Of a stretch of 40,449 bases of DNA, positions 13,477 through 36,165 are shown in pieces; the first letter of the stretch is position 1, and each line of letters starts with the position of its first letter. A model generated the notes under the pieces. The model was not told where the DNA came from and searched no databases. It saw nothing but the letters and a program-made list of their open reading frames with translations. The translations under genes and the position numbers were made by a program. The DNA is from Bacteroidota bacterium (GTDB lineage Bacteria > Bacteroidota > Bacteroidia > Chitinophagales > LD1), in NCBI GenBank assembly GCA_947478005.1, contig CANJVG010000017.1, positions 1 to 40,449 on the forward strand, read 5' to 3'.

Positions 13477-13477
13477 G

Positions 13478-14287
13478 TTACTTACCGGTTGCAATGTTAC
13501 TTCCGCCTAATCCTAAAAACGCAAACCTTCTTTGAAAGGGTAAAAATATTCTCCAGATAATGGCGAACAACCAACACATAAAACTATGAACGAAAGTGGG
13601 AAGTGCGCGCACTAATGCTACATTTTTATAGAAGTAAATAAAACTCTGGCTCCCTAAACCTTTGGCGCTGATTTCCATTTTGCGGTGAATCAGGTTTTGC
13701 GGAACAAAATCAATCATCAATAAATATCTTCTTTCGTTGCTTCGGTTCCAGACGCTGTGTTTTTGGACGTTGATGAAGCAAAGCATTTCGCCATCTTTCC
13801 ACCCTCTTTCTTCATTGCCTACTCTTATGGCAATAGTGGGATAGGGTGCAGGAATAATTAAACCCAAATGTGTGCGTACAATTCCATTGGTATCGCCAAA
13901 GTGCGGAGCTAGTTCAGTATGTGGAGGCAAAATACTGATGCCGGCAAAAACAATACTTGGAATCTGGTCAATGACACTGCTAATGAAAGGGAACAGTTTT
14001 TTGTTAGCATGAATGATTCGTGAGAAACTCATTAAGTAAATGAGTGTCCACTCTCCGCCATAGGTTTCAGCATGGGAGATGGAACTCATGCCGGATATAT
14101 GTCCGTGCGCTTTTTCGAACGCTAAAATTTCATCTCTAATTCCTTTCCAGTTTTCTTTGAGCGGTGCGAGTTCAGGAAATAATTCGGGGTCGTAGTAGTA
14201 ATCCAAATGACCGCTGTATTCTTCCTTGGGTGGTCTTACAAAAACCAATTCTTCACCTTCGGGCCAGGTAAATTGTTTATTGGTCAT
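13478..14287 (-). CDS. Aspartyl/asparaginyl beta-hydroxylase family protein with hydrophobic tail (first of a pair)
   Basis: 269 residues of PF05118. Motifs: APHFGDTNGIVRTHLGL (His129, Gly131, His140), RGWKDGEMLCF, and KHSVWNRSNERR (His177, Arg187). The C-terminus carries a hydrophobic helix, SFMCWLFAIIWRIFLPFQ, followed by a basic RRF, matching the tail of its neighbour. This suggests monotopic membrane association, which fits a lipid or lipid-linked substrate. It is translationally linked to the paralog downstream. The pair stands 77 bases downstream of the YbhN-like gene on the same strand, so the three may be one transcript. Confidence 0.85.
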   Translation of the reverse strand: MTNKQFTWPEGEELVFVRPPKEEYSGHLDYYYDPELFPELAPLKENWKGIRDEILAFEKAHGHISGMSSISHAETYGGEWTLIYLMSFSRIIHANKKLFPFISSVIDQIPSIVFAGISILPPHTELAPHFGDTNGIVRTHLGLIIPAPYPTIAIRVGNEERGWKDGEMLCFINVQKHSVWNRSNERRYLLMIDFVPQNLIHRKMEISAKGLGSQSFIYFYKNVALVRALPTFVHSFMCWLFAIIWRIFLPFQRRFAFLGLGGSNIATGK

Positions 14288-15578: not shown

Positions 15579-17195
15579 ATGGCTAAGGTAAGTTTTGCGG
15601 CATTGGGTACAGAGCAGTTGGGCATTAGTATGCTTTCGGCTATTGCTAAGTCAAAAGGGCATGAGGTGAACCTGGCGTTTTCGGCTTCGCTGTTTCACGA
15701 CCGGTTTAATTTAGAGATGCCGGGCATTGCGCCTTTCTTTGATGATACTGCCGAGGTAATAAAGGCCATTGAAAAGCAACAACCCGATGTGTTGGCTTTT
15801 TCTCCGCTCACTTCTACTTATCAGTGGGCATTGCAAATTGCCGCTAAAGCGAAAGAAATAAACCCCCATGTAAAAACGGTTTTTGGCGGAGTGCATGCTT
15901 CGGCTGTGCCGCAATTGCTTTTGAAACGCCCGCAAATAGATTATGTGGTAATAGGCGAAGGCGATGTGGCTTTTCCGCAAATTATACAGGTGGCTACTGA
16001 CGCTGCTTTTAATAAGCCGATTCCGAATACGCGCTACAAAGCAAAAGACGGCTCTATTATCAGCGGCATGCAAACGGGGTTTTTTCAGGATTTAGATTCC
16101 TTGCCTTTTGCCGATAAGCCGTTGTGGGAAGAGCATGTGCGCTTAGGCGATTTGTATTTAGCTATGGCTTCGCGCGGCTGCCCTTACCGCTGCACGTTTT
16201 GTTTTAATAATTTCTTTGCCAAACTGCCCGAAGAAAAATCAGGGAAGTATGTGCGTCTTCGCAGCCCTGAGCACATGATTGCGGAACTGAAGATTGCGCA
16301 GCGCAGATATAAATTGGAAGTAATAGATTTTCAGGATGATGTTTTTACCACGAGTAAAAAGTGGTTGCAGGATTTTCTTTACCTCTACAAAAAAGAAATC
16401 AAGAAACCGTTTCAGATTCTTACACACCCGCGTTATATGGATGAAGACATAGCGAAATGGCTCAGCGATGCAGGTTGTGTGTGGGTGCAGATGGGTGTGC
16501 AAAGCATGGATGAAAGTTTTAAAAAGGACACGCTGATGCGTTACGAGCGAAGCGAAGATGTGAGTGCGGCTATTGATGCCATGAATAAATTTGGCATGAA
16601 GGTAAAGGTAGACCACATGTTTGGGTTGCCCGATGAACCGATTAGTGCGCAGGAGAATGCCAGAAATTTATACGCTTATCATCCTGCCAAAAGAATTCAA
16701 ACGTTTTGGACTTGCTATTTACCGGCTACTGAATTAATGAATGACGCTTTAGCCAAAGGCAGAATTACCGAAGAGCAGGCAAACAAAATAAATGAAGGAG
16801 AAGATTTTTATTTTTTCCGAAATACGGAAAATATTAAGGATGAGAAGTTGATGAATTTGTATAAAGCTTACGAAGTTATTTTCCGCATTATGCCGGTGCT
16901 GCCGGAATCAATCCGAAAGAAATTAATGCCGGAGCATATTATGCGCATGCCGAACTTTTTGATTAGACCGTTGAGTATGCTTAGCGATGTGATTACCGGT
17001 TTTATGATGCGCAATCCTGAGTTTGGCGCTTATGCTAAACACAACCTGTTTCATCTTTGGAAATTCTTTTTGCGCAAAATAGGCATTCGGAACATGGTGG
17101 CTACTAAGGTGGTAAACAATGTGGAGTTTGGTACTTTTCAACCTGAGATGGCTGCGGTTGAAGCGGAAGTTGTTGTTCAATCAAAAGTTGCCTGA
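15579..17195 (+). CDS. B12-binding-domain radical SAM protein
   Basis: 538 residues. The N-terminal part (about 1-145) has the Rossmann-like B12-binding layout with VFGGVHASAVPQLL and YVVIGEGDVAFPQI, typical of class B (BchE-like) radical SAM enzymes. The radical SAM domain begins with SRGCPYRCTFCFN, cysteines 201, 205 and 208 holding the 4Fe-4S cluster. A long C-terminal region (about 400-538) follows. Such enzymes methylate unactivated carbons or rearrange rings in lipid, cofactor and natural product synthesis. The start at 15579 has the normal N-terminal strand. The membrane protein gene begins 20 bases later, so co-transcription is likely. Substrate not predictable. Confidence 0.9.
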   Translation: MAKVSFAALGTEQLGISMLSAIAKSKGHEVNLAFSASLFHDRFNLEMPGIAPFFDDTAEVIKAIEKQQPDVLAFSPLTSTYQWALQIAAKAKEINPHVKTVFGGVHASAVPQLLLKRPQIDYVVIGEGDVAFPQIIQVATDAAFNKPIPNTRYKAKDGSIISGMQTGFFQDLDSLPFADKPLWEEHVRLGDLYLAMASRGCPYRCTFCFNNFFAKLPEEKSGKYVRLRSPEHMIAELKIAQRRYKLEVIDFQDDVFTTSKKWLQDFLYLYKKEIKKPFQILTHPRYMDEDIAKWLSDAGCVWVQMGVQSMDESFKKDTLMRYERSEDVSAAIDAMNKFGMKVKVDHMFGLPDEPISAQENARNLYAYHPAKRIQTFWTCYLPATELMNDALAKGRITEEQANKINEGEDFYFFRNTENIKDEKLMNLYKAYEVIFRIMPVLPESIRKKLMPEHIMRMPNFLIRPLSMLSDVITGFMMRNPEFGAYAKHNLFHLWKFFLRKIGIRNMVATKVVNNVEFGTFQPEMAAVEAEVVVQSKVA

Positions 17196-17214
17196 TATTT
17201 TCTTCCCTAAATTT

Positions 17215-18897
17215 ATGAAGCCATTTTTTAAAGAGCGCGCGGTGGAGTTGGTACTTACCGTTATCGCCTTTTGTTGGTGTGTGTGCTTCTCTACCATTGT
17301 TTTGGATGATTACGGTTCGTTTGCTTACCTGAGCATGCCCACGGGACAATACTGCAATTATCCGCATATTGACCATTGCTACAATGCTTTTCTGCTGGTC
17401 AATAGCTTTTACAAATTTATATCGGTTGCTTTTCCGGCTTACAACGGCATGGGTATTTCGTTTATGGTGCTCCAATTGCTTTCGCTTTATTTATTGCTGC
17501 GCAGTATTAAAAACAGTTTGCTGCAAAATGAGCAGCCGTTGTATATGGTGCGTGTGGTGCAGATTTTATTTGCCTGTTTTTATTTAGAAAACATTTTAAT
17601 TCTGTCGCACACGCGGTTCTCGCTTTTATTTTGCGGCACTGCACTTTTCAACTTAGCCTTTACTCCGGTGCTTCGCAAAAGAGATATACTGCTCAACTCC
17701 ATGCTGTTTATTTTGGGTATGCTTCACCGTCCCGAAAGTAGTATGGGTATGCTGGCATTGGTGGGTATGGGCTTTCTCATTCACCGGTTTGATGTGGTGC
17801 ATTTGCTTAAACGGTTTTTTATTCCTGCCTCGTCAACGGTTTTGTTGTTTACTGTTTTTGCCATTGACTGGCAGCATACCGATGTGTTTGTGAAAAAGAT
17901 AGAGCCGGAAATTGAATACAAGATCATGGATAAGCGGGTGGTGTCTTTAGCCGAAATGAAGACCGCGCAGGACTCGGTAAAATACCAGGCAGCTGTAATA
18001 GGTATGTGGTTCGATACGCGTGTGTTGACTCCCGAATATTTGCGCAGCATTTTGTTGCCGGGTATAAACATAAGTGCCGAACACTTCATCAGAATATTTT
18101 TTCATGTGCTGAAACTTTACGGGCATTTTCTTTTTATTCCATTTATGCTTGCAAGTTTTGTTTTGCTGTGTTTGTTTCCTGGCTCCGGTCGTTCAACGCT
18201 GTTTAAAATCATTCTTTTTCAGGCGGGCGTTTTTTGTTTAATTTTTGCTTTAGATTTTAACGGGCGCTTGGTAGCGGGCAGGCATTTCTTGAATCTGCAA
18301 TTGATTTCACTGCTAATTACCTCGGTTTATTTTTTTAGCGCGGTTCGTGATTCCAATAAAGTAGTAGCACTGGTTTGCCTGTTGTGTATTGTTGGCGTTA
18401 CCGTTATTACGGTGGATGGTTATAAAAATGACGCTGATGCAATAGCCGCTGATACCACCTGTTACGAAGCCGCAATGCAGCAGCTGGAAACTACGTTTAC
18501 TAACCGAACCATTGTGGCTACTATTACTAATATCTATTTAATGAACCACAACTTTACTTTGAAAAACAAAAACTACACTCGCAATAAATTCCTTATGTAT
18601 GATGTGTTTAATTACAGTTTAGCACCTTCGTATATGGCATATTTAAGCAGTCAATGCAACTGTGATGCCGGTGACCCCGTGGCTTTTTATACCTGGCTGG
18701 CAAAACAAAAGGCGCTGTATATGGCTGAGCACGCGCGGTATGAGTTAACCGAGGGATATATGAAATTAGTGCACGGCTTGCCACTGAAGTTTGTGGTGCC
18801 TGCCGATTCGTTGATGAAACCCGCGTGTGTAAGCAGCTCGAACCTGCGATATTTTGAACTGCGAAATGTTGTAATTGCGACCCGCTGGACTCGGTAG
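17215..18897 (+). CDS. Polytopic membrane protein, GT-C-like, tandem family member A
   Basis: About 560 residues with roughly 10 or more hydrophobic helices and a soluble C-terminal part. It resembles GT-C glycosyltransferases in layout: an acidic pair (Asp31-Asp32) in the first outer loop and many helices. It is paralogous to the protein at 19263: compare EPEIEYKIMDKR with EPDIEEQFIARE, and YLRSILLPG with YLRSLILPE. I chose the ATG at 17215; the frame reaches an ATG at 17119 inside the radical SAM gene, but that stretch is a shadow. The last six residues, ATRWTR, look foreign: they are read from the start of a decayed paralog, so the native end was probably lost in a recombination event near 18870. 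Confidence 0.72.
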   Translation: MKPFFKERAVELVLTVIAFCWCVCFSTIVLDDYGSFAYLSMPTGQYCNYPHIDHCYNAFLLVNSFYKFISVAFPAYNGMGISFMVLQLLSLYLLLRSIKNSLLQNEQPLYMVRVVQILFACFYLENILILSHTRFSLLFCGTALFNLAFTPVLRKRDILLNSMLFILGMLHRPESSMGMLALVGMGFLIHRFDVVHLLKRFFIPASSTVLLFTVFAIDWQHTDVFVKKIEPEIEYKIMDKRVVSLAEMKTAQDSVKYQAAVIGMWFDTRVLTPEYLRSILLPGINISAEHFIRIFFHVLKLYGHFLFIPFMLASFVLLCLFPGSGRSTLFKIILFQAGVFCLIFALDFNGRLVAGRHFLNLQLISLLITSVYFFSAVRDSNKVVALVCLLCIVGVTVITVDGYKNDADAIAADTTCYEAAMQQLETTFTNRTIVATITNIYLMNHNFTLKNKNYTRNKFLMYDVFNYSLAPSYMAYLSSQCNCDAGDPVAFYTWLAKQKALYMAEHARYELTEGYMKLVHGLPLKFVVPADSLMKPACVSSSNLRYFELRNVVIATRWTR

Positions 18898-19096
18898 CTT
18901 TTTACACCTGGCTGGCTAAAAACCACGCACTATACATGGCAGAGCCAAACGCTATAGTTTAACTTCACGTTATATGCATCTCGTTCATTGATTGCCGCTT
19001 CAGTTTGAAGCAGATTCGTCTTTCAATAAACCCGATTGTATCGCTAATACACAGTTTGCCAATTCTGAATTGTGTAGGGTAGTGGTAAAAAATTAA
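18870..19096 (+). pseudogene. Decayed C-terminal fragment of another member of the tandem membrane protein family
   Basis: Read in the +1 frame relative to the intact gene's last codons, 18870 onward gives CNCDPLDSVAFYTWLAKNHA, then LYMAE, matching CNCDAGDPVAFYTWLAKQKA and LYMAE of the gene ending at 18897. A frameshift follows near 18950, then SLTSRYMHLVH, a TGA where the intact copy has Gly, LPLQFEADSSFNKPDCIA, and a terminal SELCRVVVKN before TAA. It is therefore the tail of a lost paralog. It accounts for most of the gap between the two intact genes. Confidence 0.8.
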
Positions 19097-19110
19097 ACCT
19101 GTGTGGGTTC

Positions 19111-19170
19111 ATGAAAAACTTTTTTTTAAAGAACGGGCATCCGAGTTGCTATCAATGCAATGCATTTTTG
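19111..19170 (+). pseudogene. Decayed N-terminal fragment of a further paralog
   Basis: ATG at 19111 starts MKNFF. If the run of eight T (19120-19127) is read as six, the frame continues FFKERASELL, matching MKPFFKERAVELV at the start of the gene at 17215. Similarity fades within about 20 codons. This is the head of another lost copy, disabled by homopolymer change and deletion. The rest up to 19262 shows nothing recognisable except a short inverted repeat, CGTAT-TT-ATACG, near 19213-19224. Confidence 0.65.
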
Positions 19171-19262
19171 TAACCGCAAGTAAAGGGCTGAAAATTATTT
19201 AAAGAACTAATCCGTATTTATACGAGATGCGAATAAAAATAAAAGTGCAAATTTATAGCGCA

Positions 19263-21029
19263 ATGAATAACACGACCTCCTCCTTAAGTGAGAAATTAAA
19301 AACGGCTGATATAATTAGTACGATACTCATTACGTTATTATGTTTTATCCTTACGTGGTTCGTGTTTGGCTTTTATTATGTAGAATACGAAGGATTGAAC
19401 ACGAGTTTTTTCAGCGGCAAACTAACTCCCGGCTTGCCCTTTCGTTCAGTTTACTTTTCGGGAAACATTGGCATCTCTTTCATTTACTCGTTCTTTTATG
19501 AACACTTTCCGAATGTGGAGTGGCTTTCATGGATTTATTACAGCTATTTATTCTTCTCCTGTTTCATTGGTCTTTACATAGTTGCTAAACTATTGCCTGC
19601 TAAAACTTCTCTAACGGTAAAGATTCTTCTTCAAGTACTTGTGTATTACCTCGTATTTGCCGACCATCACATTCATTATATCTACACCCGCGTTTCTTAT
19701 ATGTGTTGCGGCCTTTCGTTAATTGGGTTAGTAGTGCTATTTAATTCAATTACTGCCATCAAAGCGCGTTGGTGGATTTTTCTTTTGCTCAATTTGTTTT
19801 TCACCATTGGCGCACTTACCAGAATAGAAGTAGCTACCGCATGTTTTCTTTTGTTATCTGTTTTCGCTGTTTTCTATGCACAAAATATCAAAAAAACTAT
19901 CCTATTGTTTTTATATCCTGCTATTGTAATTGCGGTGATGGCTCTGGCACTTTCTATGGATATTAAAACAGCTACTTTAAGAGAATTCTACAAACAAGTA
20001 GAGCCCGATATTGAGGAGCAATTTATAGCCAGAGAAAACAGAGCTCCGCTTTCGTATATGAAAACGCATAGAGATACCGTGCTCTACAAAACAGCCATGG
20101 AAATGGTTTGGAGCGACCCGCAAAATATTTCCGCAAAATATCTGCGATCACTTATTCTTCCTGAAAAATTAATGTTCACCGATGTTAAGCAATGGAGTCG
20201 CGTATTTCGAAGCTTTTCACAAGTGGGTACAAAATATTGGTATCTGTTTTTGCTCACCACAATGCTGAGTATTGCGGTGCTTGTACAATACGGTTTTGGA
20301 AAATCGTTTCTAAACCGGCTTTACACTTTAGGTTTTGTGTTTTCGTTTTGGGGATTAACTATTGCTCAAATCTATACCGACAAAGTGAACGAACGCTCTT
20401 TCCTTCCATTTCTCAGTCTGTTTATTTTTTGTCATGTAATTTTACTTGTATCTAGTACCGCCACGCGTATTTCGTTATGGCTTTATCCTTTGTTTATTTT
20501 CTGTTCGGTTCTTTTAGGCATTCATGTTTTTGCTTTGAAAGAAGAATCAAACACGCTTAAAACAGATTTGCTCAGGTATCAGGCTAACTATGAAAAAATA
20601 AAAAGGGCAGCAGCCAATAAATACTTAGTCATGAACTCCACTTCGTTCGACTATATATTTTTAAGCAATGTCCCTTTTCATACCTTCAATTTCTCTCCAT
20701 TCAAAAAAATGTATATCACCGATGGATACATCATTCCATTTTTGCCATACTACAAACGTTATCTGGAACAGGAATGTAATTGTGACATCTATGCTTTCCC
20801 GAGTTTCTGGAATTATTTAAAATCAATTCAGCAAGATGTGGTGATTGTTTCTACACCCCACCGAATAAAAGTGGTAAAAGAATATCTAGAAGAAATACAT
20901 CATTTCCCTTTTCCTGTTGTAGAAGATAAGACAGTACAGTTGATGGAACAACGCAAAAGCGACAATAGAGAAACGCATGATGAAATGAAGATGTATGCTT
21001 TTGAGAGGCAGAAACAGGATTCTATTTAG
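19263..21029 (+). CDS. Polytopic membrane protein, GT-C-like, tandem family member B
   Basis: About 588 residues with 10 or more hydrophobic helices, then a soluble C-terminal region holding ECNCDIYAFPSFWNYLKS, which matches the CNCD-WL segment of member A. The shared loop KQVEPDIEEQF and the ordered helices show common descent, though identity is low. The ATG at 19263 places a short polar N-terminus before the first helix, as in member A; an ATG at 19227 would add 12 residues. It converges on the cytochrome gene with an eight-base overlap of stops. A membrane glycosyltransferase role is possible; I could not match it to a named family. Confidence 0.7.
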   Translation: MNNTTSSLSEKLKTADIISTILITLLCFILTWFVFGFYYVEYEGLNTSFFSGKLTPGLPFRSVYFSGNIGISFIYSFFYEHFPNVEWLSWIYYSYLFFSCFIGLYIVAKLLPAKTSLTVKILLQVLVYYLVFADHHIHYIYTRVSYMCCGLSLIGLVVLFNSITAIKARWWIFLLLNLFFTIGALTRIEVATACFLLLSVFAVFYAQNIKKTILLFLYPAIVIAVMALALSMDIKTATLREFYKQVEPDIEEQFIARENRAPLSYMKTHRDTVLYKTAMEMVWSDPQNISAKYLRSLILPEKLMFTDVKQWSRVFRSFSQVGTKYWYLFLLTTMLSIAVLVQYGFGKSFLNRLYTLGFVFSFWGLTIAQIYTDKVNERSFLPFLSLFIFCHVILLVSSTATRISLWLYPLFIFCSVLLGIHVFALKEESNTLKTDLLRYQANYEKIKRAAANKYLVMNSTSFDYIFLSNVPFHTFNFSPFKKMYITDGYIIPFLPYYKRYLEQECNCDIYAFPSFWNYLKSIQQDVVIVSTPHRIKVVKEYLEEIHHFPFPVVEDKTVQLMEQRKSDNRETHDEMKMYAFERQKQDSI

Positions 21030-22197: not shown

Positions 22198-23634
22198 CTA
22201 ATTTTTCCTTTGCTGCAATCTAACCCAATGTAAAGCTTTTTCAATGCGTTTGATGAAACTAGATTTTTCGAAAGGCAATTCGACTAACTGCTTAATATTT
22301 TCGGGTTTGCGTAGCGTGTCAAATTCAATCCATTGCAAATACGCATTTCTATAGCAGAGATTGAAGAGAATAAACTCTAAACGTGCGAAGAACGAAAGCT
22401 TTGTTTTGAAACTTCTCGTCACAATTCCAACGAGTGAATAATACTTGCCTATAAATTCTGTTGCTCCGTTTTGAACATACTTGGCATCAACGCCAATGGG
22501 TAAATAAGTCAATTGATTGCCATCGTAACTCGGAATTTCTTCGTTCAGAAACACTCCTTTTTTCTTTACATACTCATGCACTTTCGTTCCAGGATTGTAA
22601 GTGAGGAAGGTAAGCTTAGCATAAATAATCCCCATACGCTGATAGAATTTGAACAATTCTTCAAAGGTGTTTTTGTGCGTGCCTTCTAATCCTAAAATAA
22701 TACCCGCAGCAATTTGAATTCCATGCGACTGCACCTTTCGAATAATGCGCTCGTAGTTTTCAATATGGTTCGTATTCATTTTGTGAACCGAGTTGAGCGA
22801 TTGCTGGTCAATAGATTCCAATCCGCAATAAATCATTTTGCAGCGACTGTCTTTTAACGCAGCTAACACCTCGTCATTATCCAAAAGCTCAATGCACATT
22901 TCAGCCATCCATCCTAAGGCTCCACTTTCTTTAATCCACCTGGATGATTCAATTACATGATGACTATCCACCCCGAAATTGTAGTCCACCACATTGATGA
23001 ACTTGTCTTTATATTGAGGCAAAATATTTTTCAATGCATCAAGACTGCTCAGGTTGTAGTTTTTCTTTTGCATCGTGTGCACCATACAGAAGATGCATTT
23101 CTCGGTGCATCCTCTTGAAGTTTCAAGCGGATAACCCATGAACTGATAATACTTTTTCGCATCAGGCAAAAAAGAAAAATCGGGTTGAGAGATAGTATTA
23201 CTGTTGTTCTCTCCAAAATATTTTTGCTGAAGATTATTTGCCTTTAAATCTGCCACGAAAGCATCGGCAACAGGTTCAAACAAACCACCCAATACTGAGT
23301 CGGCATATCCCAAACACATATCCGGAAGTAAAGAAGGCAACTCACCGCCCCAAAATATTTTTGATGAAGGAGAAAGTGATTTCAATTTCTTTGAAACTGT
23401 GATTGCCTGTTCAAAGTTTTGAGAAGAAACTTTCAAGCCAAACATCACCACATCTTTTTCGGAAGGAACATATTCGTTATAGTCAATAAAATTGAGGTCA
23501 ACTATTTTTACCGAATATGATTTTGATAAACAAGCAGCAACCGACAAAAGTGAAAGAGAAATGACCCCTTTAGGGAAAGTGGGTAAATCTATAAGAATGA
23601 TATTTTCGTTCCTGTCGTTCATTAAACCAATCAT
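22198..23634 (-). CDS. B12-binding-domain radical SAM protein (second)
   Basis: 478 residues. The N-terminal domain starts with NIILIDLPTFPKGVISLSLL and contains IFWGGELPSLLPD, matching the B12-binding layout. The cluster motif is SRGCTEKCIFCMV with cysteines 176, 180 and 183. Later motifs, YCGLESIDQQSL and AAGIILGLEGTHKNTFEE, fit the SAM barrel. I took the ATG at 23634; the frame runs one codon further to a TTG. Its only close neighbour downstream is the pentaheme cytochrome, and a PhyH gene starts divergently 68 bases away. It is not a close relative of the radical SAM protein at 15579. Confidence 0.88.
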   Translation of the reverse strand: MIGLMNDRNENIILIDLPTFPKGVISLSLLSVAACLSKSYSVKIVDLNFIDYNEYVPSEKDVVMFGLKVSSQNFEQAITVSKKLKSLSPSSKIFWGGELPSLLPDMCLGYADSVLGGLFEPVADAFVADLKANNLQQKYFGENNSNTISQPDFSFLPDAKKYYQFMGYPLETSRGCTEKCIFCMVHTMQKKNYNLSSLDALKNILPQYKDKFINVVDYNFGVDSHHVIESSRWIKESGALGWMAEMCIELLDNDEVLAALKDSRCKMIYCGLESIDQQSLNSVHKMNTNHIENYERIIRKVQSHGIQIAAGIILGLEGTHKNTFEELFKFYQRMGIIYAKLTFLTYNPGTKVHEYVKKKGVFLNEEIPSYDGNQLTYLPIGVDAKYVQNGATEFIGKYYSLVGIVTRSFKTKLSFFARLEFILFNLCYRNAYLQWIEFDTLRKPENIKQLVELPFEKSSFIKRIEKALHWVRLQQRKN

Positions 23635-23702
23635 CAAATTTGAAAGCTATTTTAGGCAAATAGTTTTCGCTCACAATATGAGTTATTTTTTCTTCCCCCG
23701 CT

Positions 23703-24509
23703 ATGTTTAACAACCCTACCATAGAACAGAATCTTGCTCAAAACGGATTTGCGGTTATAGATGCAAATCTGCTGAACGAAGTTGATGAGTTGCAGAAGTA
23801 TATAGCTGAGCATTTCGCATTTGCTGGAACTGATTTCTATTACAGTTTACTTGCCAATACTTTCGAGCAGAACATAGTTCTTCAAAGTTTCATTAAAAAA
23901 ACGTTGAAAAATTTTTACGAAACCCAATTTATCGGTTACAGAACAATCACTGAATCTTTTCTAGCTAAACCTGCAAATGCATTCGATGAGTTATTGCTTC
24001 ATCAGGATTGGAATTATACTGATGAAGGGAAATATCCTGCATACAACATTTGGATTCCTTTAACGGATGTAACGGAAGAAAACGGCACCTTGTTTTTTTT
24101 AAAAGGAAGTCATTTGTGGTTTAATAATCTGCGTTCAGCTACATTGCCTACGGCAAGACTCAGTATGAATATTTTTTCTCTTGAGCAAATTGAATCAGTT
24201 ATGGTAAAGAAAGGGCAGGTACTTCTTTTTAATCCCGCAGTTTTTCATGGTTCATATCCCAACAATTCTTCTCAAAACCGAATTGTAGTAACCGCAACGC
24301 TCTTGCCACAAGAGGCTCCGTTTCTTTATTATCAGCAGAGTGAATTGCTGGGAGAAGTGAAAGTGTTTCAATTAAGTGATGATACTTTTTTCAAGAGCTT
24401 GAAAACAATTGCAGTTGGTGGAAATCCCGATGCAACGGAAATAAACCGCTTAAAATATTCGCATCAGACTCTAAGCTATGAAGATTTGAGAGAAAAATTA
24501 TTGACGTAA
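23703..24509 (+). CDS. PhyH-family Fe(II)/2OG dioxygenase
   Basis: 268 residues, the usual PhyH length. Iron ligands His100, Asp102 (LLHQDWNYTDE) and His182 (VFHGSYPN) are present, with Arg193 for 2-oxoglutarate. The motif ENGTLFFLKGSHLW lies between them. HQDWxxxDE links it to the edge-truncated protein at 1-879 and to the first domain of the protein at 28107, rather than to the three tandem copies that follow. Its stop faces the stop of the halogenase-like gene with three bases between. Likely transcribed from the divergent gap 23635-23702. Substrate unknown. Confidence 0.92.
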   Translation: MFNNPTIEQNLAQNGFAVIDANLLNEVDELQKYIAEHFAFAGTDFYYSLLANTFEQNIVLQSFIKKTLKNFYETQFIGYRTITESFLAKPANAFDELLLHQDWNYTDEGKYPAYNIWIPLTDVTEENGTLFFLKGSHLWFNNLRSATLPTARLSMNIFSLEQIESVMVKKGQVLLFNPAVFHGSYPNNSSQNRIVVTATLLPQEAPFLYYQQSELLGEVKVFQLSDDTFFKSLKTIAVGGNPDATEINRLKYSHQTLSYEDLREKLLT

Positions 24510-24512: not shown

Positions 24513-25394
24513 TTATGACCAGTAATAAATTTCTTTGTTGTCTTTAGAGAAGTTTAGAAACCCTCCGAAAGTAATTCGCGGAATAGTTCCTTTAATATCT
24601 TCTACGCGGTGCCAGATTGGCCCTCCTGAAAAGACGAGAATATCACCCGGTTGTGGCCTTACCGAAAAACGGTGCACATCTTTTACATAGATAGGATTGT
24701 CATTGTTGTCAATGACAAATTCATTGTTCTCAGGGCTTTCTTTACGTTTTACTTTATCCCAAAGCATATCATAGATAGTCAACTCGCCACCCGCATCAGG
24801 TTGTTGCAGCACCACGAAATAGCTCAATTGGTCATCCATATTAATATCGTTTTTTATCAGGGAGTAGTAAAACATGCTTTGCGCCTGAAATAGATTTCCG
24901 CAGTGAACATGAAGTCCGCCCATGTTTGGATAGAACATTCTGAATGTGCCGGGTGCTACTTCTTTGTCTTTTATTTTATTGTGCGGAATACTTACATGAT
25001 AATTTTTTGCAGCAGATTTGAAGAAGTTATCGAGTTTGCGCGCAAGATTACCAATAGAAGAGTTTGTTTCCTTATACTTATCAAAAAGCGAAAGTTTATT
25101 GTAGTAAGCTTCTAATCTTTCTGCGGTATCGGTAATGATGGCAAAAGGCGCAGGGAACATTTTGCCAGAAGGAGTTGGCATAAATTCGCTTTCATCCAGA
25201 TTCGTAAGAAAATTTTTGATCTCGTTTACTTCCTCAGCGGTGAACACATTTTTTGTGATAAAACCATCGAGTTCGTGGTTTTTAATTTGACCAACCAAGT
25301 CGCCACGTTGTTCCAATTCTTCAAACGGAACTTCGATAAAATTGAAAAATATTTCATCGCCATATATACGTGCTGTGTTTGTTGTATTTTGCAT
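24513..25394 (-). CDS. Fe(II)/2OG enzyme resembling WelO5-type halogenases, HxG at the iron site
   Basis: 293 residues, close to the length of the cyanobacterial hapalindole/welwitindolinone halogenase WelO5 (about 290 from memory). Similarity to WelO5 as I recall it runs through the protein: LDGFITKNVF, VHCGN, DQLSYFVVLQQPDAGGEL, GDILVFSGG, WHRVE and RITFGGFLNFS. The iron site reads His164-Cys-Gly166, distal His262 and Arg273 for 2-oxoglutarate. The acid of the usual HxD/E triad is Gly, as in WelO5 (His164/Gly166, by my recollection), where the vacancy accepts chloride. A second His (162) precedes it and could alter the site. I chose the ATG at 25394; the frame extends to a TTG at 25430. It is transcribed opposite the PhyH genes on both sides. 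Halogenation is an inference; hydroxylation with a two-His site remains possible. Confidence 0.75.
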   Translation of the reverse strand: MQNTTNTARIYGDEIFFNFIEVPFEELEQRGDLVGQIKNHELDGFITKNVFTAEEVNEIKNFLTNLDESEFMPTPSGKMFPAPFAIITDTAERLEAYYNKLSLFDKYKETNSSIGNLARKLDNFFKSAAKNYHVSIPHNKIKDKEVAPGTFRMFYPNMGGLHVHCGNLFQAQSMFYYSLIKNDINMDDQLSYFVVLQQPDAGGELTIYDMLWDKVKRKESPENNEFVIDNNDNPIYVKDVHRFSVRPQPGDILVFSGGPIWHRVEDIKGTIPRITFGGFLNFSKDNKEIYYWS

Positions 25395-25492: not shown

Positions 25493-26380
25493 ATGAGTGC
25501 GGTGACCCCTCTTTTTAAAAATGAAACCTTACAAACCCTGTTTGAAAAAGACGGATTTGTGAAAGTGCCTTTGCTCAATCTGCAACAGGTAAATGAGCTT
25601 AATGATTTTTTTGCAGCACGTAAAGAACTACATGCTACCGTTGACAATCTTCATCACACTACTACCGATACACAAAATCCGGAATTGATTAAGAGCGTAG
25701 ATGCAAAAATCAAATCGGTTTTACTTCCTGAGTTAGAAAAAGTGCTTGTTGATTTTAAAGGATTAGCCGGCTGTTTCCATATTAAAGAGACCGGCACTGG
25801 TTCTGAAACCGGCATACATCAAGACCCAACTTTTGTTGATGAAAATAATTTTTGTAGTGCGAATGTTTGGGTGGCATTGCAGGATATTGATAAAATAAAC
25901 GGCAATCTTTTTTTTGTGAGCGGCTCTAATCGTGCTGTCACATCTCTACGTGTTACGCCTGCGTTTCCGAGTTATTACGAAAGCTTTCAACAGACTTTGC
26001 CTGAAATGGCTACACATGTCTCTCTTAAAAAGGGAGAAGCGGTGATATTCAATAACGCAACTATTCACGCGGCTACGGAAAATTTATCGAACGATATTCG
26101 CTTGGCAGCCACGCTACTTATTTGCTCGGCACCGGCTCAGTGGCTTTTATATTATCAGGAGAAGGGAGCCGCAAATGATAAGATTGAAAGGTATCATTTA
26201 GATGTGGATACGTTTTTCTCTATCGCGAACAACGGGCGACCGAATAAAAGTGCATTTGCAGAGTTTGTCACTTATGAATATCCGCAGTTAACTAAAGAGG
26301 AATTTTTAAAGCGGATAGGGGTTAAGAAAAACTACCTGCAATGCATTGCCGATTTTTTTAGAATGAATAGTGTAGTATGA
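25493..26380 (+). CDS. PhyH-family dioxygenase, tandem copy 1
   Basis: 295 residues. N-terminal signature KDGFVKVPLLNLQQVNEL, iron ligands His109, Asp111 (GIHQDPTFVDE) and His192 (TIHAATENLS), Arg203. The usual GSH segment reads VSGSNRAV, a Gly-Ser-Asn variant. It is the first of three tandem copies sharing NGFVK/DGFVK, HQDxxFVDE and N-V-WVALQD. Its stop overlaps the next start (ATGA). It begins about 100 bases from the divergent halogenase-like gene. Copies 1-3 are different enough to serve different positions or substrates. Confidence 0.92.
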   Translation: MSAVTPLFKNETLQTLFEKDGFVKVPLLNLQQVNELNDFFAARKELHATVDNLHHTTTDTQNPELIKSVDAKIKSVLLPELEKVLVDFKGLAGCFHIKETGTGSETGIHQDPTFVDENNFCSANVWVALQDIDKINGNLFFVSGSNRAVTSLRVTPAFPSYYESFQQTLPEMATHVSLKKGEAVIFNNATIHAATENLSNDIRLAATLLICSAPAQWLLYYQEKGAANDKIERYHLDVDTFFSIANNGRPNKSAFAEFVTYEYPQLTKEEFLKRIGVKKNYLQCIADFFRMNSVV

Positions 26381-27252
26381 AACCATTGTTCCAATCAGCG
26401 GCACAGCAAACTGAGTTTGAGGAAAATGGTTTTGTGAAAGTACCTTTGCTTTCTGCAAGTGAAGCAGAAGAATTGTTGACTGCTTATCAATCGATAGCCG
26501 CGGCACATGAAAAAATAAATATCCCTTACATCACTACCAGTCACTCAAACGATTCTGCTTTGATAAAGCATGTGGACGCAGTTTTGCAAAAAGTAATAGC
26601 ACCGGTTTTAAGTAAGGTATTGAACAATTATAATTTGCTATTCGGCAATTACTTAGTAAAAATGCCTGTGACGAACTCTGAAACAGAACCCCATCAGGAT
26701 ATTACGTTTGTGGATGAAACAGAATTTGCTTCCGTAAATGTTTGGGTGGCGTTGCAGGATACGAATGAAGAGAATGGCTGTATGTATTTTTTAAAAGGAA
26801 GCCATGACTTAATGCTAACTTTAAGACCAACGCATGATTATCCCTGGGCTTATGAAAATGTGAAAGGGGAAATTAAGAAACAATCACAAGTTTTTACTGC
26901 GAAAGCAGGAGATGCATTTATTTTTAATCATGCGGTTGTTCATGGTTCGTTTCCAAACAGAACAAAGCAACCAAGAGTAGCTGCGGTGATTGCTGCTTAC
27001 CCGTGCGATGCACCATTGCTTCACTATTATTTACCGGAAGGAGAAAAAAATAAAGCGCAGGAATACAGCATGACGAAGGAAGCCTTTCTTCATTTTAAAA
27101 AAGGTGAACCACCTGCCAAAGGAGTATTCTTGAAGGAGGTAATTTTTGATTTTAAACAATTAAGCAAAACAGAATTTGATTTGCTGATGAATAAAAAACC
27201 TAACCCTGTTTCCCTATTTAGTGCAGTAGCTAAATTTTTGAAAGGAAAGTGA
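26377..27252 (+). CDS. PhyH-family dioxygenase, tandem copy 2
   Basis: 291 residues, with NGFVKVPLLSASEAEEL at the start, His106 and Asp108 (EPHQDITFVDE), WVALQDTNEENGCMYFLKGSH, His189 (VVHGSFPN) and Arg200. It starts inside the stop of copy 1 (ATGA overlap) and ends one base before copy 3, so translation is coupled. Full active site, normal family length. Its N-terminal and core motifs are closest to copies 1 and 3, consistent with local duplication. Confidence 0.92.
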   Translation: MKPLFQSAAQQTEFEENGFVKVPLLSASEAEELLTAYQSIAAAHEKINIPYITTSHSNDSALIKHVDAVLQKVIAPVLSKVLNNYNLLFGNYLVKMPVTNSETEPHQDITFVDETEFASVNVWVALQDTNEENGCMYFLKGSHDLMLTLRPTHDYPWAYENVKGEIKKQSQVFTAKAGDAFIFNHAVVHGSFPNRTKQPRVAAVIAAYPCDAPLLHYYLPEGEKNKAQEYSMTKEAFLHFKKGEPPAKGVFLKEVIFDFKQLSKTEFDLLMNKKPNPVSLFSAVAKFLKGK

Positions 27253-27253: not shown

Positions 27254-28162
27254 ATGAGCAAGCCGAAAATTTTTCGTGATGAAAAACTGCAAAACGAATT
27301 TGATGAGAATGGTTTTGTGAAATTTCGCATGTTTAAACCAGAGCAGGTGAAGCGGCTGCACGATTTTTATTTGCAAACACAGCAGCAACACGAAACAGTT
27401 ATTGACAAAAGAAAGTTTCATGCCACCAATGATACCGATAATGCTGCACTCATAGATAGCGCAGATAGTTTTATTAAGGAAGTAATGCTCGAAGAAATTG
27501 ACAAGCACTTACGTAACTACAAAACCATTGCGGCCAACTACTTGCTCAAACAATCTTCACCTGAATCTGAACTTGGTCCGCACCAAGATTTACGGTTTGT
27601 GGATGAAGTAAAATTTTACTCGTTCAATATTTGGGTGGCTACTGAGCCTACTGATAAACGGAATGGTTGTCTTCGGTTTCTAAAAGGCAGTCATCGTTTT
27701 CATGATACTATTCGCGCCTTGCCTACTTATCCATGGAAGTATGAAAGTGTGATCAGAGAAATACCAAATTATTTTACGGATGTAACTACTGAAGTAGGAG
27801 ATTGCATTATTTTGAATCATGCCTGCATTCACGGGTCGTATCCTAATTTATCGGGGCAAACGAGAATAGCGGCTATACTTGCCATGATACCGGAGGGCGC
27901 TTCTATCTGTCATTATTTTTTGCCTGATGGAAACCCCGCCAACAAAGTTGAAAAGTATGCGATGACGCTGAATGATTTTATCAACTTGAAAGGAGGGCAG
28001 CGGCCTGAACATGCTGTGCTGGAAGAAACATTTAAGTATGATTTTTCGCCTGTGGAAGCGGGGCCGTTTTTAAAATCTATTGCTAATAAAAAGTCACCAA
28101 AAAATAATGGATACCAATTTATCAGAAACCAAATCACCGCCTTATTTAAAGGCGTTAGATGA
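27254..28162 (+). CDS. PhyH-family dioxygenase, tandem copy 3
   Basis: 302 residues. NGFVKFRMFKPEQVKRL at the start, His110 and Asp112 (GPHQDLRFVDE), NGCLRFLKGSH, His193 (CIHGSYPN), Arg204. The active site is complete. The C-terminus is positively charged and ends after the start of the next gene, which overlaps it by 56 bases. Such a long overlap supports a tightly linked operon and argues that the order of these oxygenases has been stable enough for overlapping ends to form. Confidence 0.92.
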   Translation: MSKPKIFRDEKLQNEFDENGFVKFRMFKPEQVKRLHDFYLQTQQQHETVIDKRKFHATNDTDNAALIDSADSFIKEVMLEEIDKHLRNYKTIAANYLLKQSSPESELGPHQDLRFVDEVKFYSFNIWVATEPTDKRNGCLRFLKGSHRFHDTIRALPTYPWKYESVIREIPNYFTDVTTEVGDCIILNHACIHGSYPNLSGQTRIAAILAMIPEGASICHYFLPDGNPANKVEKYAMTLNDFINLKGGQRPEHAVLEETFKYDFSPVEAGPFLKSIANKKSPKNNGYQFIRNQITALFKGVR

Positions 28163-29797: not shown

Positions 29798-31099
29798 ATG
29801 AGTGAAACGCAGGCCAACGCGGAAATAGCTATTGACGTAAAGAATATTTCGAAAGAATATGTTCTCGACAAAACGCAATCGAAGAACTCCGAAGAACATT
29901 TTTTTGCCTTGACGGATATTTCATTTACGATTCACCGTGGCGATGTGTTAGGTATTATAGGAAGCAATGGTTCGGGTAAATCTACCTTGCTAAAAATTTT
30001 AAGCCAGATTACAAAACCAAGTTCGGGCGAGGCTCGTTTTTACGGGTCGGTTACTTCAATTCTGGAAATCGGCACCAATTTCCATCCTGACTTAACAGGG
30101 CGAGAAAATGTGATGGCACAACTGAAATTAGCCAATTGCAACCTAAATGAATTTGATAATCTTCACAACCAAATACTTGATTTTAGTGAAATTGGTGAAT
30201 TCTATGACCAACCAGTGAAATTCTATTCGAGCGGAATGTTTTTGCGATTGGCATTTTCGTTAGCCTTTCATATTTCTGCTGATATACTGATACTCGATGA
30301 AGTTCTCTCTGTAGGCGATGAAGGTTTTCGATTGAAGTGTTTTGAGTTGCTGAGGCTATTTACCCAACAAGGGAAAACCATTTTATTTGTTTCGCATAAT
30401 CGTTTAGAAATTCTCGAGCTAAGCAATAAATGTTTGTGGATAGACAAGGGACAGATAAAAAGAATAGGGACACCATCCGTTGTTTTAAGTGACTATTTTG
30501 CGATGCATCGCGATAATTACGATGGTCAAAAACCAATAATTCTATCTGATGAACTAAGCATTGATACACAATCTAATGCGGACGGAACTGTTGATCTGCG
30601 TTGGCACAAAGAAACAGCACCTGGCAATGAAAATATATCAATCCGACAATTGTCTGTAGGCTCTTTTAATGGTTTTGGAAAATTATTTCATTCCACTCCT
30701 ATCAAAATCAGGTTCGTTATAGACAAAAACAAACCAGGTATTTTGATTGGCGCGTTCTTCTTTGTGCAGGATGTATTTTATCAGCCTGTTTTGGTAGGTC
30801 ATTTTTTAAATAATTTAAAACAAAACGATCTTAGCCATCAATTGAAAAACGTGGTGGGGCTAATAGAAATTACCTGTGTAATTCCCGCCAATTTTTTAAT
30901 GCCCGGCAAATATTATCTACTTCCGCGATTTGGCATGGAAGAAAAAGAGTGGAATATCACATCGGAAGAAGCATTTCGTTTTTCTGAAAAACTTCATTTC
31001 ACAGTTGAGGCGGAATCCGGGTACAAGGATCTGATAGGGGACATAAGCAAAGGCTCGGTTCGCCCACCATTAGATTGGGAAATCACAAAGTTGAACTAA
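29798..31099 (+). CDS. Wzt/TagH-like ABC transporter ATPase with C-terminal recognition domain
   Basis: 433 residues. The nucleotide-binding domain has Walker A GSNGSGKST (55-63), the signature YSSGM (143-147), Walker B ILILDE (163-168) and the switch His200 in VSHN. The early GTNFHPDLTGRENV loop is typical of polysaccharide exporters (Wzt/TagH/RfbE). Residues about 245-433 form a separate beta-rich domain like the C-terminal Wzt domain that reads the non-reducing end of the glycan in some O-antigen systems. It is translated right behind the two-domain PhyH gene, which suggests the oxygenases act on the exported polymer. No Wzm-type permease is visible in this window, so the partner must be elsewhere. 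Confidence 0.9.
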   Translation: MSETQANAEIAIDVKNISKEYVLDKTQSKNSEEHFFALTDISFTIHRGDVLGIIGSNGSGKSTLLKILSQITKPSSGEARFYGSVTSILEIGTNFHPDLTGRENVMAQLKLANCNLNEFDNLHNQILDFSEIGEFYDQPVKFYSSGMFLRLAFSLAFHISADILILDEVLSVGDEGFRLKCFELLRLFTQQGKTILFVSHNRLEILELSNKCLWIDKGQIKRIGTPSVVLSDYFAMHRDNYDGQKPIILSDELSIDTQSNADGTVDLRWHKETAPGNENISIRQLSVGSFNGFGKLFHSTPIKIRFVIDKNKPGILIGAFFFVQDVFYQPVLVGHFLNNLKQNDLSHQLKNVVGLIEITCVIPANFLMPGKYYLLPRFGMEEKEWNITSEEAFRFSEKLHFTVEAESGYKDLIGDISKGSVRPPLDWEITKLN

Positions 31100-32472: not shown

Positions 32473-33327
32473 CTACTGCTTCCATTTATTCAAAAAGTGC
32501 AGCCACCAAAACTTTTCCATTAGCGGGTCGATATACTTCACGGTGTCTTTGGGCAATATTGCTTTTAATGTTTCGGTTTCGGGTTTTTGAAAGTGGGTAT
32601 AGCGAATGTAAAAATCGCTGGAGGGCACTTCATACACTCTAATTTCATCGGTGCCCTCGGGCATACAATAGTGAATGACCGGAGCCTGTTGGGGTACAGT
32701 AGTTAAGTTAATGGCCGGTCGGGTTTGTTTGCTTTTATTGGCCGGAGAATAATGCAGTAATCGATGATTATAAATCAGCGCATCACCTGCATTCATCGGC
32801 ATCAGCTTGCCATATCTTTTTTCCCAAACATGGTCGCGGTCGCGAGTGCTTTGACGAATCAATGGGCCACGGATAAGATTGGTGACCTTGTGTGAACCTT
32901 CAATCAAACCAAAGCATCCGTTCTGTTCATTTACATCTACCAAAGGAATCCAGATAGCTGCTGAGGAAAAAAGGGTTTCATCGACATAGGTCCAGTCGGC
33001 ATGTAAATCCATGGCTACCGTTGGGTCAGGATTTTTGACCATGAAGTTGCCGAACAGCGGACGGTAGCTACTCAGATAACTGCCGGCTTTGGGAAACACC
33101 AGTGTTGAAATGGTATCGTGAACCTTTTGCTTATACTCAACATTACTGCTGAAATGAGAAGTATGAAATGGTCCTTCGAATTGCTTTTGGAACTGAAGAA
33201 ATAGGTCATTCAGTTTTTGAACTTCTTCAGCACTCAACAAGGAGCGCAACAGCACATATCCCTTTCGGTCAAATTCTTTTTGCAACAAATCATTTGTAAA
33301 AACCCGACTCACCGGCATATCACTCAT
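32473..33327 (-). CDS. PhyH-family dioxygenase (HAD type)
   Basis: 284 residues. KEFDRKGYVLLRSLLSAEEV at the start, His109 and Asp111 (DLHADWTYVDE), NGCFGLIEGSH, His192 (LLHYSPAN), Arg203. The HADW motif and the sequence around IWIPLVDVNEQNG group it with domain 2 of the fusion at 28107. The start at 33327 overlaps the stop of the preceding PhyH gene (ATGAGTGA); an ATG at 33318 would leave one base between them. Both genes form a - strand pair pointing towards the HTTM-like gene. Confidence 0.9.
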   Translation of the reverse strand: MSDMPVSRVFTNDLLQKEFDRKGYVLLRSLLSAEEVQKLNDLFLQFQKQFEGPFHTSHFSSNVEYKQKVHDTISTLVFPKAGSYLSSYRPLFGNFMVKNPDPTVAMDLHADWTYVDETLFSSAAIWIPLVDVNEQNGCFGLIEGSHKVTNLIRGPLIRQSTRDRDHVWEKRYGKLMPMNAGDALIYNHRLLHYSPANKSKQTRPAINLTTVPQQAPVIHYCMPEGTDEIRVYEVPSSDFYIRYTHFQKPETETLKAILPKDTVKYIDPLMEKFWWLHFLNKWKQ

Positions 33328-34255
33328 CTTTTGGCTTATGCTTTTTAATAAGGCGCAGAAGTTCCTTTTCACTCAGTTCAAAAGGTTCAAACTTCACCTT
33401 GGTTTTCTTCCATAATGTTTCATCGGGTTTCGAAATAAAATCGTAGCCATAGTAGAAGTTTTCGTCCACCACATATTTTTCAATCAAACTACCGTCAATG
33501 TCTTTATTGCGGAAATAATAAATCAACTCATAGTTTTTGCGCAGCACAGTTATGGTAATCGCATGACGAATTTCTTTTGAAAGGTTTGGTGCACTGGCGT
33601 GAATAACCGCAGGGTCAAACACGATGACATCACCCGCTTTCACGGTTACTGGTTGGGTATGTTTGTAAAGGGTTTCGATATGATTTTTAAACTGCCAAGG
33701 CACTCCCAAACTGCGTTGTGTATTGCCCCAAAGATGGCTACCTGGCACAAATGAAATATGTCCATTTTCCATCGTTACATCGCAAAAAGGAATCCACACA
33801 AAAAGACAATAATCTTTTTCCTCGTCTATAACAGTGCTATCTTGATGAATCAACAAATCGCTCTCTATATGTGGGGGTTTAACTTGATAGGCACCACCCG
33901 TATGCTCATCAACCTTCTGCATATTAAACATGCGCGGCAAAACAGTCGCAGCATTTTTGTTGATGACGTCCTGTGTTTTCTTTCGTATTTCAGGATTGAA
34001 CAATCTGCCGCTGTTTAATAAATTTTTTTCGAGTTCAAATCCTTCAAGCTTCGAAATTTCGGCAAACGTTTCCATGAAGCTTTTTATTTCTTCGGGCTTC
34101 AGAACGTTTTCGATGACACACCAGCCATGCGTTAAATAGTACTGATGTTTGTCTTCATCTAAAAAAAAACCTTCTTTTCTAACCTCTAAATGTGGGTTAG
34201 TTTTCGGTCCCTTCATCTGGCCAAAAAAAGAAGTTAAAAGCGAACGAATGCGCAT
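33320..34255 (-). CDS. PhyH-family dioxygenase
   Basis: 311 residues with a basic N-terminal extension of about 35 residues before the fold. His137, Asp139 (LIHQDSTVIDEEK), ENGHISFVPGSHLW, His219 (VIHASAPN), Arg230. It is the first gene of the - strand pair and belongs to neither the triplet nor the HADW group. A candidate -7 box lies about 37 bases upstream. The active site is complete. Confidence 0.9.
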   Translation of the reverse strand: MRIRSLLTSFFGQMKGPKTNPHLEVRKEGFFLDEDKHQYYLTHGWCVIENVLKPEEIKSFMETFAEISKLEGFELEKNLLNSGRLFNPEIRKKTQDVINKNAATVLPRMFNMQKVDEHTGGAYQVKPPHIESDLLIHQDSTVIDEEKDYCLFVWIPFCDVTMENGHISFVPGSHLWGNTQRSLGVPWQFKNHIETLYKHTQPVTVKAGDVIVFDPAVIHASAPNLSKEIRHAITITVLRKNYELIYYFRNKDIDGSLIEKYVVDENFYYGYDFISKPDETLWKKTKVKFEPFELSEKELLRLIKKHKPKDE

Positions 34256-34353: not shown

Positions 34354-35170
34354 CAAGAATAAAATTTGCTCAACGCTTCTTCTGTAACTTGGTTTCCACC
34401 ATATTTTTTTGTTCAATCAAAGGATATTTATTTTTCAAAATCGGATTATCAAATTCATTATGCGCAAAGAAGTTAGTATCTACTGCTTAAATCTCGACTT
34501 CATCTTGGCTTTCGGTCAATCTGATATATTGAATCTTTGCTTTCTTATGAATAACACTCCCATGAAAAACAGGACGCGTCTCCAGAATTTCATTTGGATA
34601 TGAACCATGAAGTGTCTTTTCTAAATAAACAATCATATCACCTGCCTTTGCCCTCACGGAAAAAAAATCTTTCTTCAATTTTGGGGAGAGATGTGCGGAA
34701 GGCCATATTGAAAATATAGGCAAACACTCCATGAATAGTTGATGGTTCTTAGGTACCACAAACAAGGTTTCATTGCGCCATTTACATCAACCAATGGTAC
34801 CCAAATATTGCGGTATTGAAATTGTTCCTCGTTAAATATACTAATGCCTCTATGGATAGGATATTCGCTATCTACCATCGGATTTTTTGCCATAAAAGGG
34901 CTGCTGGAAACACCCAATCGTAAAACAAGTTTTCAAAGTGTGGTTTACAAACCGCAATTACCTTTTCGGAAATGGCTGACCCATTCTCTTTAGGTAGATG
35001 CGTTGTGCTATTCCAAAAAATATTGTCATGGAGACTATTATATGGTTATCGTGATATAATTTGTTCAAATATTCAACTTCATCTGTTGAGAACAGCGAGG
35101 GGATGTGAACAAAGCCTTTGTCGTTAATTTCCTGTTCTAGTTTTTCATCTTTATAAGCAGGGGCTAACTT
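34354..35170 (-). pseudogene. Multiply frameshifted PhyH dioxygenase pseudogene
   Basis: Read on the - strand from 35170, homology to the intact PhyH gene at 35320 extends nearly end to end but hops frames: KLAPAYKDEKLEQEINDKGF, a shift near 35045, NIFWNSTTHLPKENG, a shift near 34895, YPIHRGISIFNEEQFQYRN, a shift near 34775, then FVVPKNHQLF and KTLHGSYPN, a TAA after DEVEI where the intact copy has Tyr, and a last shifted piece ending VTEEALSKFYS before TGA at 34354. The initiator ATG is replaced by AAG. The acid of HxD is Gly (HRG). It is clearly a dead paralog of its divergent neighbour. Confidence 0.88.
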
Positions 35171-35282
35171 GTAGTTGGTTTTATGGTTAGTGTAATCACA
35201 AAGAGTAAAAAAGCGGAAAAAAATTAGACTATTAGAAACGACCATAGGACTTACAACACCTTTCTGAATGCTGTTTTTTTTT

Positions 35283-35319: not shown

Positions 35320-36165
35320 ATGCTGGCACCTACTTTTAAAGACGAAAAACTAGAACAGGAAATTAACGACAAAGGCTTTGTTGTTATTCCTAGCTTTCTA
35401 GCAAAAGAAGAAGTGGACAAACTCTTACTCATATATAATACAAGCCATAAGGAGCGAGAAATTGGGTGCTGGAACAGCCTTTATGATTTACCTACAGGTA
35501 TAGGAGAAGAAATTTCTACACAAATAAAAAATGTAGCCGAACCACATTTAGACAAGCTATTCAACGATTGGCAATTTCCGTCTGCGCTTTTTATAGTAAA
35601 AAACCCCGGACAGAATCATGAAAGTTTAGTTCACCGCGATGACACCTTGCATGATGAAGCGGAAGTTCAATATCGCCAATGTTGGGTACCTTTAGTGGAC
35701 TTAACTACTGAAAACGGGGCATTGTATATGGTTCCTAAAAGCCATCAGCTTTTTACAGATAGCAGACCTATGTTTTCCAAATGGCCATATGAACATTTAA
35801 GGCCACGGCTGGCGCAAGAGTTTGAAACCATCTATGCCAAAGCAGGAGACTTGATTGTCTATTTAGATAAAACATTACATGGTTCTTACAAAAATACGAG
35901 TAACGAAACCAGACCTGTTTTCCAAGGAGGTGTTATGCATAAACATGCACTGCCTTTATATACTCGCTATGTAGCGGATAGAAATGAGGTGGAAATATAT
36001 CAGGTTGATCCACAGTTTTTTTTCAATAAAGAATACATGAATCCTGTGGTCAACAAAAAATATCCCCTATTAAAAGTGGAGAAATATATCACTACGGAAA
36101 TTACAGAAGCACAGGTAGACGATTTTTTTAGCAAGCATTTGCATAGCGAAGAAGTTACTGCCTAG
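35320..36165 (+). CDS. PhyH-family dioxygenase (HRD type)
   Basis: 281 residues. FKDEKLEQEINDKGFVVIPSF (first part: FKDEKLEQEI), His105, Asp107 (LVHRDDTLHDE), ENGALYMVPKSHQLF, His187 (TLHGSYKN), Arg198. All ligands are intact. It is the living twin of the pseudogene that starts divergently about 150 bases away, so the two arose by an inverted duplication. The intergenic stretch holds a good -7 box. The C-terminal tail is acidic, unlike the basic ends of the tandem triplet. It converges on the TMTC-like gene across a hairpin at 36204. Confidence 0.92.
   Translation: MLAPTFKDEKLEQEINDKGFVVIPSFLAKEEVDKLLLIYNTSHKEREIGCWNSLYDLPTGIGEEISTQIKNVAEPHLDKLFNDWQFPSALFIVKNPGQNHESLVHRDDTLHDEAEVQYRQCWVPLVDLTTENGALYMVPKSHQLFTDSRPMFSKWPYEHLRPRLAQEFETIYAKAGDLIVYLDKTLHGSYKNTSNETRPVFQGGVMHKHALPLYTRYVADRNEVEIYQVDPQFFFNKEYMNPVVNKKYPLLKVEKYITTEITEAQVDDFFSKHLHSEEVTA

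Follow-up and report, generated by a model that had tools for sequence, protein, structure and literature searches.

Can an Fe(II)/2-oxoglutarate enzyme encoded by a member of the Bacteroidota, with a glycine in place of the acidic iron ligand, be an aliphatic halogenase of the kind known from WelO5? The question is raised by an open reading frame at 24513-25394 on the minus strand (293 amino acids and a stop codon) of a 40,449-nt window, which is one entire contig of the source genome. In WelO5, two histidines, 2-oxoglutarate (2OG) and a halide sit on Fe(II); a ferryl species is formed, a hydrogen is abstracted, and chlorine rebounds to a free substrate. The SyrB2-type halogenases of the PhyH family carry HxA at the corresponding site. 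A preliminary description, which gave no strand, had proposed a WelO5-like enzyme with an HxG site outside of its known setting, and the residues it named can all be read back in the open reading frame: the VHCGN stretch with His164 and Gly166, the distal His262, Arg273, and the segments DQLSYF, PDAGGEL and RITFGGF. We consider the protein to be, probably, a carrier-protein-independent Fe(II)/2OG aliphatic halogenase of the WelO5 family, because the acid is swapped for Gly as it is in WelO5 and the swap is kept in the close relatives.

The protein matches PF22814, the Pfam family of WelO5, through its residues 19-293 and across profile positions 1-277 of 277, with 204.2 bits (cut-off 27) and an E-value of 3.9e-60; a match of this strength along the whole profile means that the motif is not there by chance. 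By this Pfam assignment, the protein family itself is not new. A sequence search of the PDB returned six distinct sequences at E < 1 (1.9e-27 to 1.1e-25), all of the WelO5 type: three are named WelO5, and three are named only "Oxidoreductase" while being nearly identical to WelO5 in sequence, two of these being titled WelO5*. Judging by the entry titles, chloride-containing entries are found among these matches. Neither PF05118 (the AspH family) nor PF05721 (PhyH) matched the protein at E ≤ 10, and the "chlorinating enzyme" model TIGR01762 did not match it.

When aligned with WelO5, numbered here so that its last residue is 290, the protein is identical in 74 of 265 columns (28%), and the residues of interest pair as His164 with His164, Gly166 with Gly166, Ser191 with Ser189, His262 with His259, and Arg273 with Arg270. 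All of their codons are on the minus strand: those for H162-V163-H164-C165-G166-N167, which include the proximal His and the Gly replacing the acid, at 24894-24911; Ser191, at the position of the second-sphere residue favouring chlorination in WelO5, at 24822-24824; His262, the distal iron ligand, at 24609-24611; and Arg273, the probable ligand of 2OG, at 24576-24578. In the family alignment described below, His262 and Arg273 are each matched in 38 of 38 residue-bearing rows. With WelO5, AmbO5 and WelO5*, the halogenases of cyanobacterial hapalindole-type alkaloids, the protein thus shares homology along the whole PF22814 profile, the HxG motif, both histidines, the second-sphere Ser, and a C-terminal YYWS. 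It differs from WelO5 in its modest identity, in having Cys for Val165, in its Bacteroidota host, and in its setting of PhyH, radical-SAM, AspH and ABC-exporter genes. The SyrB2-type halogenases have likewise lost the acid, and the same general chemistry is proposed for them, but they belong to PF05721, a family in which the present protein has no place.

An AlphaFold2 model calculated from four sequences had a mean pLDDT of 47, which was too poor for the model to be used for the active-site geometry or the pocket. In a Foldseek search with this model, WelO5 chains filled the 16 top ranks, with E-values between 3.4e-4 and 7.6e-3, and the match ranked behind them had an E-value of 0.22; this ranking is weak support, because the TM-scores were only about 0.32-0.37.

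How widely is the family spread among these bacteria? The source genome has a single PF22814 copy. At E ≤ 0.001, matches were found in 18 of the 30 genomes from its taxonomic family and in 27 of 396 genomes of the order, 18 of the 27 being those same-family genomes. In a sample of the phylum, 5 of 395 genomes had a match and three exceeded the cut-off, namely the source genome itself and two in which only about the last 100 profile positions are covered. The viral contigs that were searched contained no relative of the protein. A plasmid search gave one weak match with the protein as the query and three weak matches with WelO5 as the query; the match on a Photobacterium plasmid, split over two frames, was rejected as a family member. 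The family alignment consists of 39 rows, with 36 open reading frames whose best match in the window is the WelO5-like protein, and three PDB chains; it excludes weak matches in six genomes (G567, G769, G272, G390, G059 and G042), a 33-residue fragment in locus L029, and loci L001 and L003, which are copies of L032 and L035. Two loci deserve a word of their own. In L061, a WelO5-like gene at 2924-3894 (minus strand) is interrupted by stop codons, and the same genome has an intact copy. In L046, three HxG paralogues with an HNG motif stand in tandem at 6351-8965 (plus strand), with an ABC-2 permease and a Wzt-type ATPase as neighbours.

Position 166 is occupied by Gly in 28 of the 39 rows, by Glu in five, Asp in three and His in two, with one gap. 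The protein and 13 relatives form a clade with support of 100/99, and every one of these 14 members has HxG. We infer that Gly166 is held by selection, since the residue is retained in all 14 orthologues by way of four different codons (GGA in seven, GGC in three, GGT in three and GGG in one), and since dN and dS against the nearest relative are 0.032 and 0.751, a ratio of about 0.04.

The tree was built from the 36 rows that were left after three short ones (L045, and L061 twice) had been dropped, and its only rows from outside of the bacterial order are the three near-identical PDB chains. The preliminary description had allowed that the protein might fall among proteins in which an acid elsewhere completes the triad; such a placement did not arise, its 13 clade mates all being HxG. 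Placing it in a "WelO5 clade" proved to be a loose way of speaking. In the best trees the HxG rows cluster without making up one group, and three changes are needed, or four when the motif columns are left out. The HxG side of these free trees also holds an HxE row on a very long branch (L047), an HxD row (L050, 14395) and a pair of HxH rows, so Gly and acid may have been exchanged more than once in the family. A single group of all 26 HxG rows including WelO5, which is absent from the free trees with their long branches, was not rejected either with all 36 rows (p-AU 0.177) or with the 33 rows that remain after L047 and the two HxH rows are removed (p-AU 0.534); for HxG and HxH together against the eight acid-bearing rows, the p-AU was 0.25. 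A loss of the acid shared with WelO5 is therefore possible, and a common HxG group is neither rejected nor shown. The family assignment, the HxG motif and the new setting all stand.

The members with other residues at the iron site are worth considering in some detail. An HxE member scores 169.5 bits against PF22814, an HxD member 201 and an HxH member 168.7, so the Pfam name alone is no proof of halogenation. These HxE, HxD and HxH proteins (in L043, L047, L048, L049, L050, L062, L063, L065, L066 and L067) belong to the same protein family and come from the same bacterial order as the HxG protein, and all ten have a PhyH-like open reading frame within 10 kb; they differ from it in carrying an acid (eight rows) or a His (two rows) at position 166, the acid making a site of the hydroxylase type. 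Three of the loci (L050, L062 and L066) each have an HxG member together with an HxE or HxD member. The HxE paralogue of L043 is encoded at 9520-10392. Because the paralogues with an acid have genes of their own, which in these three loci stand beside an HxG one, it seems that two active-site types are kept in the family for different jobs. The codons GGA and GGG for Gly and GAA and GAG for Glu, all present in the family, differ by one base.

The second-sphere serine is also found in all eight acid-bearing rows, so Ser191 is not diagnostic; it permits chlorination rather than proving it. Two HxG paralogues, at 1922-2740 (plus strand) in L062 and at 1435-2253 (minus strand) in L066, have Val or Ala at the position of Ser189, and so correspond in nature to the S189A variant of WelO5; to judge by them, an HxG site may not in every case lead to selective chlorination. 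Another two members, at 1256-2101 (minus strand) in L063 and at 9692-10540 (minus strand) in L065, have HIH at the iron site and pair with 100/100 support in the tree, the former being the HxH member scored above; perhaps these have a three-His iron site.

The reaction we have in mind for the HxG protein would follow that of WelO5. Fe(II) would be held by His164 and His262, with Gly166 leaving the third protein site open for chloride to bind the iron. O2 and 2OG would then yield a ferryl species that abstracts a hydrogen from an sp3 carbon, and Ser191 would help to keep the oxo or hydroxo group at a distance, the rebound then being of chlorine instead of OH. Published accounts bear on these steps: Ser189 of WelO5 helps the oxo group to relocate, and the S189A variant gives chlorination and hydroxylation in equal measure (PMC5350257); a plant halogenase works without dependence on such a second-sphere residue (PMC12346261); and the chemistry of WelO5 is covered in a review (PMC8407142). 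To guess from the genomic context, the substrate would most likely be a small molecule in free form, a sugar linked to a lipid, or an acyl moiety belonging to a surface glycan or glycolipid, and the neighbouring PhyH, AspH-like and B12-radical-SAM enzymes might modify this same substrate.

An iron site of two histidines does not by itself dictate halogenation. In AspH, according to one report (PMC13168262), the iron is held by H679 and H725 only, water occupies the acid site, and the known substrates are apparently not halogenated; the same report gives D721, four residues before H725, as the residue that stabilises this water, the D721A change destabilising it. The window itself has two genes of the AspH family, and it was a reservation of the preliminary description that AspH-family hydroxylases also lack the acid; in a two-histidine hydroxylase of this sort, water would be where we place chloride. 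AspH belongs to another family, PF05118, which the protein does not match, and the nearest solved family is that of a halogenase. Furthermore, the position four before His262 is Gly258 in the protein and, comparing by sequence alone, Asp in 0 of 38 residue-bearing rows (Gly in 32, Ala in three, Asn in two and Ser in one, with one gap among the 39). The reservation is weakened but not gone, and we regard hydroxylation at a site of this kind as unlikely, though deserving of some weight.

The outcome at an open site could also be something else altogether, such as desaturation, epimerisation, cyclisation or the transfer of a different anion. Many reaction outcomes are known among Fe/2OG enzymes; the HxH and the Ser-to-Val/Ala variants show that the site varies in this family, and the solved PhyH relatives of one neighbouring gene include SnoN and EvdO2. 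Nothing positive in the protein speaks for such an outcome, and Ser191 with HxG fits the chlorinating pattern, so we find it distinctly improbable. The other reservation of the preliminary description concerned His162, two residues before His164, which, like any other side chain completing the iron site, would leave no room for a halide. This residue is His in eight and Phe in six of the 14 orthologues, His in 11 of the 38 residue-bearing rows, and Ala in WelO5. Being so poorly conserved among the orthologues, it was rejected as the third ligand and probably does not serve the family as a ligand; the reservation is weakened without being gone, and we give a completed site of this kind hardly any chance. 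Chlorination by the WelO5-type mechanism thus remains our preferred reading.

What, then, surrounds the gene? The eight PhyH genes counted in the preliminary description are in fact ten, with eleven domains in the window, the first gene being cut by the contig edge; all eleven domains are HxD, with the His and Arg in place, and they are 11 of the 23 PhyH matches of the genome. One of these oxygenases (23703-24509, plus strand; PF05721, E 6.9e-21) is adjacent to and convergent with the WelO5-like gene. On its other side, profile matches identify four more HxD PhyH genes on the plus strand between 25493 and 29795 (25493-26380, 26377-27252, 27254-28162, and a gene with two domains that ends at 29795), followed on the plus strand by the ATPase of a Wzt/TagH-like ABC exporter (29798-31099; PF00005, with TagH as the best NCBIfam match at E 9.2e-53, below the cut-off); two further HxD PhyH genes are at 32473-34255 on the minus strand. 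Two B12-binding radical SAM proteins are encoded, one at 22198-23637 on the minus strand (PF04055, E 2e-14; PF02310, 4.5e-7, just below the cut-off) and one at 15579-17195 on the plus strand (PF04055 and PF02310). The two Asp_Arg_Hydrox genes, of AspH/LpxO/OlsC-like type, lie at 12721-14287 on the minus strand (PF05118; the one at 13478-14287 matches OlsC at E 2.7e-25, below the cut-off), and a glycosyltransferase 2 gene with an FdtA-like sugar gene lies at 924-2034 on the plus strand, by profile matches. A flippase-like protein is also encoded in the window. Short PhyH-like fragments, judged by eye, are seen at 34487-35245, near a similar PhyH gene at 35320-36165.

Similar neighbours are found in the other loci. 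Within 10 kb of the 36 WelO5-like rows there is a PhyH-like open reading frame in 30, a Wzt-like ATPase in 18, and a B12-radical-SAM-like gene in 15, as counted by best window match on contigs of which some are short and with some rows sharing a locus; the six rows with no PhyH neighbour are one each in L035, L044 and L045 and all three of the tandem paralogues of L046. ABC-2 permeases are present in all four WelO5-like loci with a scanned candidate (L041, L046, L061 and L065), the ATPase adjoining the one in L046 having a Wzt C-terminal domain, and L071 of the source genome has an ABC-2 permease beside PhyH genes. A carbamoyltransferase (L043), a DegT aminotransferase (L042) and a Gfo/Idh/MocA gene (L041) occur singly among the scanned loci.

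Could the PhyH enzymes themselves be halogenases of the SyrB2 type? Two neighbouring PhyH proteins have below-cut-off matches to "sporadic carbohydrate cluster" oxygenases and to TIGR01762, yet their sites are HxD. The fetched loci gave 151 PhyH domains, counting those in L070-L072 of the source genome and those of both L001 and L032, which are duplicates. Six of the domains are gapped at the site; of the 145 that could be scored, 137 are HxD and 0 are HxG or HxA, so this candidate was rejected. In six domains (L033, L043, L063, L064, L070 and L071), HxD is replaced by HxN.

The genome has four carrier-protein (PP-binding) matches and the window's contig has none, which is consistent with carrier-independent action, though no proof of it. 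An isocyanide synthase belongs to the hapalindole-type alkaloid pathway. The genome had no match to its family, PF05141, in a search where the control likewise matched nowhere. Since the neighbours are PhyH, B12-radical-SAM and AspH-like enzymes, a Wzt-like exporter and sugar genes, guilt by association suggests a surface glycan, a lipid or a glycolipid. It is tempting to go one step further, and to picture a lineage of WelO5-type halogenases outside of alkaloid pathways that would chlorinate a precursor of a surface glycan or glycolipid in Bacteroidota, with the iron-site residue swapped among Gly, Glu, Asp and His within one kind of cluster, so that one enzyme would be present in natural clusters in matching halogenase and hydroxylase forms. 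We offer this broader picture only tentatively, as a possibility with the odds against it.

Carrier-independent aliphatic halogenases are few, and they are wanted as catalysts. The WelO5 group is tied to alkaloids, with the named cases coming from cyanobacteria, in sources that include the review PMC8407142. In searches of open-access literature, no listed title or abstract opening dealt with a Bacteroidota relative of WelO5. What is new here is the spread of the family in these bacteria, its PhyH-rich setting, and the natural series of Gly, Glu, Asp and His at the iron site; the occurrence of these versions in similar loci provides natural pairs with which the conversion of a hydroxylase into a halogenase can be tested. 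Chlorinated cell-surface molecules would also be indicated if the reading of the context is true.

Two other features of the window may be mentioned. At 17119-21029, two proteins of about 600 amino acids are encoded that have no Pfam match at E ≤ 0.01, and relatives of these are found near 16 of the 36 WelO5-like rows. Pairs of DUF1800 and DUF1501 genes, at 4251-7098 and 8774-11797, flank an arylsulfotransferase-like gene at 7119-8711.
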